Positions 17,923-30,332 of a stretch of 36,676 nucleotides of DNA are shown one piece after another. Position 1 is the stretch's first letter, and every line of letters begins with the position of its first letter. The DNA comes from Pyrinomonadaceae bacterium (GTDB lineage Bacteria > Acidobacteriota > Blastocatellia > Pyrinomonadales > Pyrinomonadaceae). The DNA lies in the NCBI GenBank assembly GCA_022843305.1, contig JALHNX010000034.1, positions 1 through 36,676 of the forward strand. Reading direction: 5' to 3'. The position numbers and the translations under genes were made by a program. The notes beneath the pieces are model-generated. The model was not told where the DNA came from. It worked only from the letters and a program-made list of their open reading frames with translations, and made no database searches.

Positions 17923-18402
17923 ATGAAAATATCGGCACAGGAAGAATACGGGCTACGTTGTTTGGTGCAGCTGGCGACTTTGGCGGACGGCGAATCCTTA
18001 ACTTTGCCGCAAATCGCTGACCGCGAGGGGATTTCCCCGGCGAACGCAGGAAAATTGATGTGGCTTTTGAACAAAGCCGGATTCGTGCAGGCGATTCGCG
18101 GCACGAAAGGCGGTTACAGTTTGGCGCGACCGGCGCAGGAAATTCACTTGAACGAAGTCATCAAGGTTTTGGATGCCGATGTTTTGAACAAGCATTGCGA
18201 AAGCTATACGGGCGTGCTTGATTCGTGCGTTCACAAAGGCGATTGCGGCATTCGTCCCGTGATTGTCGGCTTGCACGAGATCGTCGAAAACGCGCTTTCG
18301 CAGATCACGCTCGCGCAGCTCGTCGGTTCGGAAAGTTCGGTTGACGCGACGTTTCATCAGATTCAGGGAATTCACCGGACAATCGAACCGCAGAGAATAT
18401 GA
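17923..18402 (+). CDS. Rrf2-family transcriptional regulator (IscR/SufR-type)
   Basis: MKISAQEEYGLRCLVQLA...TLPQIADREGISPANAGKLMWLLNKAGFVQAIRGTKGGYSLARP. HCESYTGVLDSCVHKGDC supplies three conserved-looking Cys residues. Confidence 0.93.
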   Translation: MKISAQEEYGLRCLVQLATLADGESLTLPQIADREGISPANAGKLMWLLNKAGFVQAIRGTKGGYSLARPAQEIHLNEVIKVLDADVLNKHCESYTGVLDSCVHKGDCGIRPVIVGLHEIVENALSQITLAQLVGSESSVDATFHQIQGIHRTIEPQRI

Positions 18403-18403
18403 A

Positions 18404-18467
18404 CATTTATCATTTACCGTTTATCGTTAATTTTTCTGGTAAATACGTAAATGGTAAATGATAAATG
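18404..18467. repeat. AT-rich inverted repeat between the Rrf2 gene and sufB
   Basis: CATTTATCATTTACC (18404-18418) / GGTAAATGATAAATG (18453-18467), followed by further ATAAATGGTAAATG repeats. Confidence 0.85.
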
Positions 18468-18491
18468 ATAAATGGTAAATGAATAAAGATT

Positions 18492-19931
18492 ATGTCAACA
18501 GCAGCAGAATTATTAACGAACAGGGAATATAAATACGGTTTTACGACCGACATCGAAACGGAAACGATTGCCAAAGGCTTGTCGGAAGATACGGTGCGTC
18601 TGATTTCATCAAAGAAAAACGAGCCGGAATGGCTTTTGGATTTTCGTCTGAAAGCGTATCGCCGCTGGCTGGAAATGACGCAGCCGGACAATTGGGCGAA
18701 TTTTGATTATCCGAACATAGATTTTCAAAATATTTCGTATTATTCCGCGCCGAAACAAAAGGCAAAAAAACAGAGCTTGGATGAAGTTGATCCCGAACTT
18801 CTGCGGACTTTTGAAAAATTGGGAATTCCGCTGACCGAACAAAAAATGCTCGCAAATGTCGCGGTTGACGCGGTTTTCGATTCGGTTTCGGTGGCGACAA
18901 CGTATAAGAAAAAACTGCTCGAAGCGGGCGTGATTTTTTGCTCATTTACCGAAGCAGTTGCCGATTATCCCGAACTGATTCAAAAATATCTCGGCTCGGT
19001 CGTGCCTGTTTCGGACAATTATTACGCAGCACTCAATTCGGCAGTTTTCTCGGATGGTTCATTCGTTTTCATTCCGAAAGGCGTGCGTTGTCCGATGGAA
19101 CTTTCGACGTATTTTAGAATAAACACGCAGGAATCAGGACAATTTGAACGGACGTTAATTGTTGCCGAAGAAGGTGGTTACGTTGCATATAATGAAGGTT
19201 GCACCGCGCCGCAGTTTGATACGAATCAGCTTCACGCGGCGGTCGTCGAATTGGTTGCTTTGGACGATGCGGAAATTAAATATTCGACAGTTCAGAATTG
19301 GTATGCAGGCGACGAAAACGGGAAAGGCGGAATTTATAATTTTGTTACGAAACGCGGCGCGGCACGTGGCAGAAATTCAAAAATCTCTTGGACGCAGGTT
19401 GAAACCGGAAGCGCGATCACCTGGAAATATCCGTCGGTGATTTTGCAGGGCGACGGTTCCATCGGCGAATTTTATTCGGTCGCGCTGACCAACAATGCGC
19501 AGATCGCCGATACCGGAACGAAGATGATTCACATCGGCAAAAATACGAAATCCACGATTATTTCAAAGGGAATTTCTGCCGGGAAATCGAATAATTCGTA
19601 TCGCGGTCTGGTCAAAATTATGCCGAAAGCGACCGGTGCGCGAAATTATACGCAGTGCGATTCGATGCTGATCGGCGACCGTTCGGAAGCAAACACTTTT
19701 CCCTACATCGAGGTGATGAACAACACGGCGCGTGTCGAACACGAAGCGACGACTTCAAAGATCAGCGAGGATCAGCTTTTTTATCTCCAACAACGCGGCA
19801 TCTCGCAGGAAGACGCGGTTTCGCTCATCATCAACGGTTTCTGCAAAGAAGTTTTCCGCGAACTGCCGATGGAATATGCAGTCGAAGCGACGAAACTTTT
19901 GGGGTTGAAATTGGAAGGAAGCGTAGGTTAA
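18492..19931 (+). CDS. sufB: Fe-S cluster assembly protein SufB
   Basis: [63 protein letters not shown]...[24 protein letters not shown]. Confidence 0.97.
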
Positions 19932-20521: not shown

Positions 20522-20767
20522 ATGACAATGAAAACATTAAATGATTCAGCCGTTTGGAAGGAATTTGAAACCGAGGCTAAAAAGCGTCGGCGCAATCCGG
20601 TTAAAATTTTGAGCGATTATATGAAGGAATGTCTCGAGATTTGGCAGCACGAACGGCTCGACGAAGAAATTCGTCAGGAAGCGCAAAAAAGCGGCTACAC
20701 GGAAGACGATGCGGTTGAATTAGTCCGCCGATACCGGCGCGAGAAAAAAGAAAATGCCGCCGCGTAA
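20522..20767 (+). CDS. Putative antitoxin of PIN-type TA pair
   Basis: Small charged ORF (MTMKTLNDSAVWKEFETEAKKRRRNPVKILSDYMKECLEIWQ...) overlapping the downstream PIN gene by 14 nt. Confidence 0.65.
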   Translation: MTMKTLNDSAVWKEFETEAKKRRRNPVKILSDYMKECLEIWQHERLDEEIRQEAQKSGYTEDDAVELVRRYRREKKENAAA

Positions 20768-21200
20768 AAAGCGAATCGCCGTCGTTTTGGATACGAACAT
20801 TCTGATTGCTTTTTATCTGAGTCGGAATTCCAAATCGGCGGTTTCAAAAATAATTCGTTTGTGGCGTAATGAACGAAAATTGCAGCTGATTGTCAGCCGT
20901 GAAACGATTTCCGAATATCTCGAAATTCTTGAAAGAATCGGCATTAGTGAAAAAAGGATTGAAAAGTTAAACGAAATTTTGGAAACATACGGAACGGTTA
21001 CAAAAGTTTCGCTCGGCAAAATTCCGACGGAAAGCCGCGACGCGGACGATAATTTAGTTTTGGCAACAGCGGTTTCGGGAAAAGCGAGTTTTTTGATAAC
21101 CAATGATAAAGATTTGCTCGATATTTCGGACAGGGACAAAAAGAAATTTAAGTTTCGGATTGTTACGCCGTTTGAATTTTTAAGTTTGATTGAAGAATAG
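20754..21200 (+). CDS. Putative toxin, PIN domain family
   Basis: IAVVLDTNILIAFYLS...ESRDADDNLVLATAVSGKASFLITNDKDLLD: the PIN acidic residue pattern. Confidence 0.88.
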   Translation: MPPRKKRIAVVLDTNILIAFYLSRNSKSAVSKIIRLWRNERKLQLIVSRETISEYLEILERIGISEKRIEKLNEILETYGTVTKVSLGKIPTESRDADDNLVLATAVSGKASFLITNDKDLLDISDRDKKKFKFRIVTPFEFLSLIEE

Positions 21201-26916: not shown

Positions 26917-27123
26917 ATGAGAGTTAGAACAAATTTAATCATCGAAGAAAGTTTACTGAAAAAAATTGACGCAATCGCCGGCGATAAAAACAAACGCGCC
27001 GCCGTCATCGAAACCGCTTTAACAGAATTCATCGCCCGCGAAGAAATCAAAGAAGCGAATAACCCGAAAACGGAAGTCGTCGGCGAACGAGCCGGTGCCG
27101 GAAATAGACGTGCCGGAGTTTAG
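26917..27123 (+). CDS. Ribbon-helix-helix (VapB-like) antitoxin-type protein, possibly frameshifted at C-terminus
   Basis: MRVRTNLIIEESLLKKIDAIAGDKNKRAAVIETALTEFIARE. The +1 frame would give EPVPEIDVPEFSQQF* after VVGE. Confidence 0.72.
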   Translation: MRVRTNLIIEESLLKKIDAIAGDKNKRAAVIETALTEFIAREEIKEANNPKTEVVGERAGAGNRRAGV

Positions 27124-27170: not shown

Positions 27171-27193
27171 TTTTGTGCATTTTACAAATAATT

Positions 27194-27481
27194 ATGGAAA
27201 CAGCAAAAAAAATATCAGTTACGTTACCGCAGGATTTATTGAAAAGCGTTGATGAAATTGTTGGGAAAACCCGAAAGCGTTCAAAAATTATCGAAAAGGC
27301 TTTGCGCGAATATGTAGCTAAGGAAAATCGCAAAGAATTGAACCGGCGCGACATCGAAATTATCAACAAAAACGCGGATTTGATAAATAAACAAGCATTG
27401 GAAACTTTGGATTTCCAAGCAGATTCAATAAAGGATTTTTTGGAAAATGAAAACAGCAGTAAAAGAAATGAGCAGTTTTGA
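27194..27481 (+). CDS. Ribbon-helix-helix protein (CopG/Arc-like)
   Basis: METAKKISVTLPQDLLKSVDEIVGKTRKRSKIIEKALREYVAKENRKELNRRDIEIINKNADLINKQALETLDFQ; overlaps the sufS start. Confidence 0.8.
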   Translation: METAKKISVTLPQDLLKSVDEIVGKTRKRSKIIEKALREYVAKENRKELNRRDIEIINKNADLINKQALETLDFQADSIKDFLENENSSKRNEQF

Positions 27482-28698: not shown

Positions 28699-29118
28699 AT
28701 GGATGCTTCGGGAAACAACAAATCAAATGATTCAACAGAATGGAAAACGCCATTAGCATTGAAAGTTTGGTTTTATGAAGCAGAAATTTCAGAATCAATT
28801 TATAGATTTTGGTGTCGAATAACAGGTCATAAATTTGAAAGAAGAATAAAAGAAAGACAAAATTCTTGCCTTTTAGTAACTAAACGAGGTTTTCATTTAT
28901 TTTCAAACTTGCTTTCTCGAAACATAGATATTGCGCCAAGGACATTGGAAGTTTATCAAATGAGTTGTCCCGAGAAAGTTCCATTCGGACTTGGGAAAAC
29001 AGCGTATAATTATAGTTTTTTGAAGAATAGTAATTGTAACTATTGCGGAAGATGTTATGAAGTTCAAGAAGGCGACAAGAAAATTGTCGGAAAATTTTTA
29101 ATAAATGGGAAAAGTTAA
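28699..29118 (+). CDS. Hypothetical AT-rich ORF between sufS and cupin, CxxC motif near C-terminus
   Basis: ATG at 28699; CNYCGRCYEVQEGDKK. No recognised family. Confidence 0.65.
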   Translation: MDASGNNKSNDSTEWKTPLALKVWFYEAEISESIYRFWCRITGHKFERRIKERQNSCLLVTKRGFHLFSNLLSRNIDIAPRTLEVYQMSCPEKVPFGLGKTAYNYSFLKNSNCNYCGRCYEVQEGDKKIVGKFLINGKS

Positions 29119-29467
29119 TCTAGCCGAAAAATTTGCTTTGATTTCGGAGCATTGGCGACCGAAAGTGGTTGGCGAATTGAACGGTCAGGAAATTAAGCTC
29201 GTCAAATTTCAGGGCGAATTTCCGTGGCATCATCACGAAGCGGAAGACGAAATGTTTCTGGCGGTGAAGGGAAGTTTCTGCATTGAATTTCGTGATAAAA
29301 CAGTTGAATTGGCGGAAGGCGAATTCGTCATCGTGCCGCGCGGTGTCGAGCATCGTCCGGTTGCTGATGAGGAAGTCGAAGTTTTGCTTTTCGAGCCGAA
29401 AAATGTTTTGAACACGGGCAATATTGAAGACGAGAAATTTACCGCGCCGGTCGGTGATAAGATTTAG
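29105..29467 (+). CDS. Cupin-domain protein
   Basis: FQGEFPWHHHEAEDEMFLAVKGSFCIEFRDKTVELAEGEFVIVPRGVEHRPVADEEVEVLLFEP. Confidence 0.94.
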   Translation: MGKVNLAEKFALISEHWRPKVVGELNGQEIKLVKFQGEFPWHHHEAEDEMFLAVKGSFCIEFRDKTVELAEGEFVIVPRGVEHRPVADEEVEVLLFEPKNVLNTGNIEDEKFTAPVGDKI

Positions 29468-29577
29468 AGAATTTCGGTTTTATTGAAAAGCGAATCAGCC
29501 GTTGAAAGCCGAAAGAGTTTAAACTTCTGATTTGCATTGATAATTAAAAAAATTGTTCGGGTAAATGATAAATCGCG

Positions 29578-29820
29578 CATTCCGTAGAAAAGATGCGCAT
29601 TCCGAAGAAAAATCGGTCATTCCGATACACAAGCCGCTCATTCCAGAGAAAAATCGGTCATTCCGATACACGAGCGGCTCATTCCGCGTGAAAATTGCTC
29701 ATTCTGAAGTGAAAGCCGCATATTCCGCGCGAAAATCGCTCATTCCGTAAATTTCTTGCGGTTGAGAAAAGAAAATCGTTTATTTGAACAAAATCTGGAA
29801 TATTCAGAGCGAAAAACGTG
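29578..29820. repeat. Degenerate tandem array, about 12 units of 20-21 bp, consensus approximately CATTCCGnnnnnAAAAnCGnt
   Basis: Well-conserved unit starts at 29578, 29598, 29618, 29639, 29659, 29680, 29700, 29721, 29741. Weaker units at 29761, 29781, 29801. A 41-bp higher-order repeat is visible (29598-29638 versus 29639-29679). Confidence 0.88.
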
Positions 29821-29846
29821 CCGCTTGGCGATAAGATTTAACGGCA

Positions 29847-29880
29847 ATCCAAAATCCGAAATCTAAGATCCAAAATCAAA
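29847..29880. repeat. AATCCAAAATC-type short repeat immediately upstream of sufU
   Basis: AATCCAAAATCCGAAATCTAAGATCCAAAATCAA, adjacent to the start codon. Confidence 0.7.
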
Positions 29881-29882
29881 AT

Positions 29883-30332
29883 ATGTCAGAATTAAGCGAT
29901 TTATATCAGGAAGTTATTTTAGACCACAACAAAAATCCGCGAAATTTCCGCGAGATCGAAACGGCGACGCAGACGGCGGACGGCAATAATCCGCTCTGCG
30001 GCGACGCGCTTCGTGTCTATGTCGAGATGGAAGACGATTTGGTAAAAGATGTCGCCTTCAAAGGTTCGGGTTGCGCGATCAGCAAAGCGTCGGCTTCGAT
30101 GATGACGCAGGTCGTCAAGGGCAAAACGCGCGAAGAGGCGGAAGTTTTATTCGATGAATTTCACAAAATGGTAACGGGCGAACTCGACGCGGAAGAGGAC
30201 GAAAATCATCTTGGCAAGCTGAAAATTTTCGCCGGCGTGCTGGAATTTCCGGCGCGTGTCAAATGCGCGTCATTAAGCTGGCACACGCTTCACGCCGCGC
30301 TCAATGAAGAAGAAATCGTTTCGACGGAATAA
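29883..30332 (+). CDS. sufU: SufU-type Fe-S cluster assembly scaffold
   Basis: LYQEVILDHNKNPRNFREIETATQTADGNNPLCGDALRVYVEMEDDLVKDVAFKGSGCAISKASASMMTQVVKGKT...RVKCASLSWHTL. Confidence 0.96.
   Translation: MSELSDLYQEVILDHNKNPRNFREIETATQTADGNNPLCGDALRVYVEMEDDLVKDVAFKGSGCAISKASASMMTQVVKGKTREEAEVLFDEFHKMVTGELDAEEDENHLGKLKIFAGVLEFPARVKCASLSWHTLHAALNEEEIVSTE

Follow-up and report, generated by a model that had tools for sequence, protein, structure and literature searches.

The Locus

The stretch of DNA that was analysed, here called the window, comprises 36,676 nucleotides, one contig in the genome of a member of the Pyrinomonadaceae in the phylum Acidobacteriota. The closest relatives that bear a name are MAGs from this family. 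An array of nine head-to-tail units of 20–21 bp with a dimer period of 41 bp was located at 29578–29750 (no strand assigned) by Tandem Repeats Finder (TRF), autocorrelation and unit alignment. The surrounding genes are two SufB/SufD-type genes, a class-V aminotransferase gene (SufS-like), a small cupin gene and sufU. The features that flank the array are all on the plus strand. Its upstream neighbour is the intact cupin gene (29105–29467; Cupin_2, 120 amino acids), which matches Pfam PF07883 with an E value of 5e-13 and has homologues in the family that are 83–89% identical. An AT-rich stretch (29468–29577) separates this gene from the array. Downstream follows a decayed duplicate of the cupin 3' end (29771–29841), recognized by its local score against genome chunks and by spacer comparison, which includes what is most likely the ancestral stop codon (29839–29841). 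A 41-bp heptamer-like spacer (29842–29882), most likely the ancestral cupin-sufU spacer, leads to sufU itself (29883–30332; NifU_N domain, PF01592, E 2e-27). An open frame of 61 amino acids (29565–29750, plus strand) spans the array and was judged not to be a gene. Small genes of the VapB-like, ribbon-helix-helix and PIN-domain types are interspersed with the SUF genes (26917–27123, 27173–27481 and 20754–21200 of the window).

Structure of the Array

The first-pass annotation had described helically phased units upstream of sufU and had proposed TRF as a check. TRF reported a repeat at 29570–29747 with a period of 41, 4.4 copies, 77% matches and a score of 152. The autocorrelation peaked at lags 41, 82, 61 and 20, reaching 0.71 for the 41-bp lag and 0.52 for the 20-bp lag, compared to a mean of 0.26. 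Block-shuffled genome DNA yielded no array at the same threshold. Thus, the 41-bp higher-order unit was confirmed, as were the unit starts at 29578, 29598, 29618, 29639, 29659, 29680, 29700, 29721 and 29741 with their steps of 20, 20, 21, 20, 21, 20, 21 and 20 bp (mean 20.4 bp), a spacing close to two helical turns. These head-to-tail direct repeats fall within the range of about 10–100 bp that characterizes minisatellites, one of the identities suggested for the array.

The annotation had all nine units begin with CATTCC. This holds exactly for seven of them; the unit at 29700 starts with CATTCT and that at 29721 with TATTCC. Within the unit, positions 1–7 (CATTCCG) are nearly invariant, positions 8–11 vary freely and positions 12–15 form an A-run, each A of which is present in 6–7 of the nine units. 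Three weaker in-phase units had additionally been placed at 29761, 29781 and 29801. These are not credible, as 29771–29841 resembles the 3' end of the cupin gene. The autocorrelation peaks over 29748–29830 are weak and indistinct. The 3' limit of the array lies near 29750.

A Decayed Copy of the Cupin 3' End

The similarity of 29771–29841 to the cupin 3' end reached a local score of 44, compared to a background maximum of 39 among 4160 genome chunks. It includes an ungapped block of 24 bases, 20 of which (83%) match the corresponding bases 374 bp away in the intact cupin copy. In two loci from other genera than that of the window genome, L087 (Pyrinomonadaceae TGS_ACI4) and L085 (Acidobacteria 28-1), the cupin stop codon precedes sufU by exactly 41 bp, as does the stop of the relic in the window. 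The spacers of these loci, near-identical in L087 and similar in L085, match the bases that follow the relic (scores 73 and 60) and not those that follow the intact cupin gene (10 and 11.5). Heptamer-like repeats such as this spacer occur widely in these genomes, so its position and length weigh more as evidence than its letters. The 41-bp position together with the spacer match indicates that the ancestral cupin stop most likely survives in the relic and that the present cupin gene, 374 bp upstream, would be a second copy.

The intact gene measures 363 bp, close to its displacement of 374 bp from the relic end, which suggests a tandem duplication of the whole cupin gene. The 5' part of the decayed copy would be expected where the AT-rich stretch upstream of the array now lies. 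The similarity of the supposed 5' part to the cupin gene is, however, not significant (score 25; background mean 20.8; 12% of the chunks equally good), and a multi-species DNA profile (nhmmer) did not detect the relic. The evidence for the duplicate therefore covers its 3' end. The array would lie within this decayed tandem duplicate or next to it. Cupin sequence was rejected as a source of the units, as the array scored 15.5 against the cupin gene, below the background mean. The first-pass annotation had named loss of the phasing in related strains and a decaying coding gene as observations that would speak against its reading. The array is indeed not kept in relatives and a decaying gene copy borders it, but its units do not stem from that gene.

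The spacer 29842–29882 is near-identical in another genus where the flanking proteins are just 83–85% identical. Its heptamer pattern also matches cyanobacterial plasmids (89–94% over 32–37 bp). A mobile origin of the array was dismissed, as no phage match was obtained and the plasmid matches are limited to this spacer.

Predicted Curvature

Curvature was calculated with a wedge model using Bolshoy-type wedge values; the following values are predictions only. The window array attained a curvature of 120 compared to a genome median of 40, corresponding to the 99.7th percentile of the genome. It also exceeded a null of column-permuted arrays (44.5 ± 21.3; P 0.0035). The A-tracts at unit positions 12–15 recur at a spacing of 20/21 bp and thus in helical phase, as in curved DNA. 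The proposed bending array is in line with this strong predicted curvature. Most other arrays of the class described below showed ordinary predicted curvature, including the 20-bp arrays L203, L205 and L278. Therefore, curvature was rejected as a common property of the class and does not explain it; it plausibly belongs to the window array as a physical property. A strong intrinsic bend is the likely physical effect of the array according to the model and is probably incidental.

A Class of 20–21 bp Arrays within the Family

The scan for non-coding arrays with units of 13–67 bp covered about 2.5 Mb of sequence drawn from six Pyrinomonadaceae sets, coding status being assigned by a simple codon-usage gene finder made for the scan. 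A period of 19.5–21.5 bp was found in 13 of 23 non-coding long-unit arrays, a count that includes stretches sampled because they contained an array. When array-selected stretches were left out, nine of 19 arrays had a 20–21 bp period. This excess corresponds to P 7e-9 against a uniform period distribution of 13–67 bp and to P 2e-5 against one of 13–35 bp. Six of these nine arrays come from a single genome, the congener G001, so the counts are not fully independent. No non-coding long-unit array was detected in 476 kb from other phyla. We define the class as non-coding arrays of at least about four units with a period of 19.9–21 bp, and the window array falls within it as an intergenic array of the Pyrinomonadaceae. 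A literature search for tandem repeats in this family retrieved nothing.

Further members were found by sequence searches. A search of 119 genomes of the family gave a match in G016, which belongs to another genus (E 8e-6). It consists of 4–5 units of CATATTCCGCGTGAAAAATT with a period of 20 at an unrelated intergenic site. A pattern search for pairs of CCGCGNGAAA gave four matches in the 119 genomes; two of those outside G001 fall within arrays (L278 and L279). This search led to a 20-bp array between convergent genes in G025 and a 21-bp array in G100, that is, in two further genera. Many additional ones are present in the congener G001. The members of the class are alike in period, intergenic position and degeneracy and unlike in sequence, and their gene context is mixed.

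A CCGCGTGAAAA-like core is common to the window unit and two arrays of G001, L203 on the same side of a cupin gene and L205 elsewhere. Neither column-profile comparison nor blastn showed significant homology between the window unit and these G001 arrays. The array at L203:19221–19451 is, like the window array, a 20-bp array downstream of a cupin gene and has a different unit, which may be a coincidence or reflect a shared prone site.

Strongly dyad-symmetric units occur in six of 13 arrays examined (P < 0.02 against column permutation); the units of the window array are not strongly dyad-symmetric. Intergenic 21-bp arrays of this kind in G001 lie at L208:145–571, L215:6073–6516, L221:2577–2777, L222:12078–12300, L226:2422–2749 and L231:6048–6286. 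Several of them carry inner segments in both orientations with the 21-bp phase kept. A dispersed inverted-repeat family, GAGTTCCGCCTTCAGGCGG, is present on both strands of G001 (L225:2541–2781, L205:15359–15479 and L210:8997–9173). Tandem repeats of 7–9 bp form a second common repeat class in these genomes; they are abundant, for instance at 18400–18492 of the window and at many intergenic sites in G000–G003. In TRF alignments the 20/21-bp arrays averaged 1.1% indels compared to 1.8% in other long arrays. This difference is too small and too alignment-dependent to serve as proof of selection.

Origin of the Array and Alternative Explanations

With moderate confidence, and on the basis of sequence comparison, we consider the array a lineage-specific non-coding minisatellite which would have arisen by local 20/41-bp duplication and would have no role specific to sufU. 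Such a role is probably absent. On this reading the array is young and probably bent, and it is of a type to which the family is prone. A tandem duplication would have copied the 363-bp cupin gene with about 11 bp more, and the downstream copy would have decayed. In this unconstrained DNA a 20-bp sequence may have acquired a head-to-tail duplicate, after which the copying of 20+21-bp dimers via slippage or unequal exchange may have enlarged the array. Such dimer copying would produce both the 41-bp period and the alternation of 20 and 21 bp. At this locus the empty state is known, as relatives carry the same genes 6–124 bp apart.

Two features go beyond this scheme. The near-invariant CATTCCG next to the variable positions 8–11 resembles the pattern of a binding site and counts against a minisatellite formed by slippage. 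Furthermore, pure slippage does not explain the preferred unit of 20–21 bp, and a process in the lineage may favour units of about two helical turns. Either duplication proceeds in a two-turn step or a protein assembles at two-turn steps. We rank the duplication step higher because the unit sequences are not shared and the window array is missing from close relatives. Period clustering without a common sequence points to duplication measured by the helical turn or to a protein that recognizes spacing and not sequence. Either option would tie the geometry of DNA to the birth of repeats in a testable way.

The binding-site pattern leads to the likeliest alternative, in which CATTCCG would be bound by a putative protein every two turns, always on the same face of curved DNA. 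The array would then be a nucleoid or bridging site, and other arrays would serve the same or similar proteins. The seven-base core that stays near-invariant amid drift at the other unit positions, the curvature above the periodic null, the dyad symmetry in six of 13 arrays and the common period of the class all argue for such a platform. Nevertheless, we regard it as unlikely, since the class has no common unit sequence, no curvature is predicted for the 20-bp arrays L203, L205 and L278, the gene context is not fixed and close relatives have no array. For the class as a whole, a putative architectural protein that assembles at two-turn steps might hold the unit length while the sequence drifts, with the window array as a young member; this we consider unlikely.

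A local operator array or transcription attenuator for sufU or the cupin gene appears quite improbable. The array does lie directly upstream of sufU, and on the minus strand T-runs come after small hairpins (ATCGG-TCATT-CCGAT). Nine relatives from the genome_contigs set with neighbouring cupin and sufU genes have gaps of 6–124 bp between them, 6 bp in one congener, and none of these contains a 20-bp array. In the remaining congeners the sequence upstream of sufU differs. The array has no second copy elsewhere in its genome, and searches of three congeners gave no significant match. RNA folding is unremarkable, and promoter-like sites occur at chance frequency. Consequently, the array is not conserved upstream of sufU, and its absence from relatives in which the two genes are still adjacent makes the SUF-specific element considered in the first-pass annotation unlikely.

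A non-coding RNA or CRISPR-like repeat RNA, the former also suggested in the annotation, is very improbable: repeats run head to tail and form some local hairpins, but fold z-scores were −1.74 and −1.00, no Rfam match was obtained and the repeats are not divided by separate spacers. A genuine CRISPR array was likewise rejected, as degenerate units follow one another with no unique spacers between them. A plasmid iteron or centromere array was rejected as well, since its neighbours would be replication or partition genes and not cupin and sufU.

A decayed coding repeat is scarcely credible despite the 61-amino-acid frame and other 21-bp arrays in the genus that look coding (L178, third-position bias), because the period of 20.4 is not a multiple of three, the frame has no Pfam match and was not called by the codon-usage gene finder, and a codon-usage signal is absent, which bears out the earlier view of the array as non-coding. 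The array at L178:287–577 (own genome, C16) has a 21-bp period, about 12–14 units and variation that is greatest at each third base (10/13/28). Translated as EI(V/A)(I/M)G(Q/R)R, it is likely to be a coding heptad repeat and lies not far from a DNA methyltransferase-like ORF.

Comparison with Known Repeat Systems

Our preferred reading, a minisatellite, places the array next to bacterial minisatellites and VNTR loci, with which it shares head-to-tail non-coding units, locus-specific sequence and higher-order dimers. In contrast to these, the arrays of the class concentrate, in several genera, at a period of two helical turns. The comparison between species covered one genome of each, and the congeners lack the window array. 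Phased A-tract curved DNA (PMC3940949) likewise has an A-run per about two turns and a strong predicted bend, whereas most arrays of the class have no such predicted bend. Heptameric simple repeats (PMC4692102) are also abundant and intergenic in the genus of the window; their unit is 7–9 bp, however, and neither of the array periods of 20 and 20.4 bp is a multiple of seven.

The nearest published description that we found is that of the tandem repeats of Borg elements, which are archaeal. Their intergenic arrays arise independently and almost all have unique units, and one consists of 20-nt units followed by a 21-nt unit (PMC9879509). Intergenic position, locus-specific units and the 20-nt/21-nt array are thus common to Borgs and to the window array and its class. 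Borg repeats are described as perfect or nearly so and are extrachromosomal (PMC9879509), whereas the arrays described here have units of 20–21 bp that are about 77% alike and lie on bacterial genome contigs; with 77% matches, the window array was rejected as a repeat of the Borg type. The window array is real and locally ordinary. It leads to a more interesting pattern at the level of the family, a little-noticed class of between-gene 20–21 bp arrays in the Pyrinomonadaceae to which it belongs.
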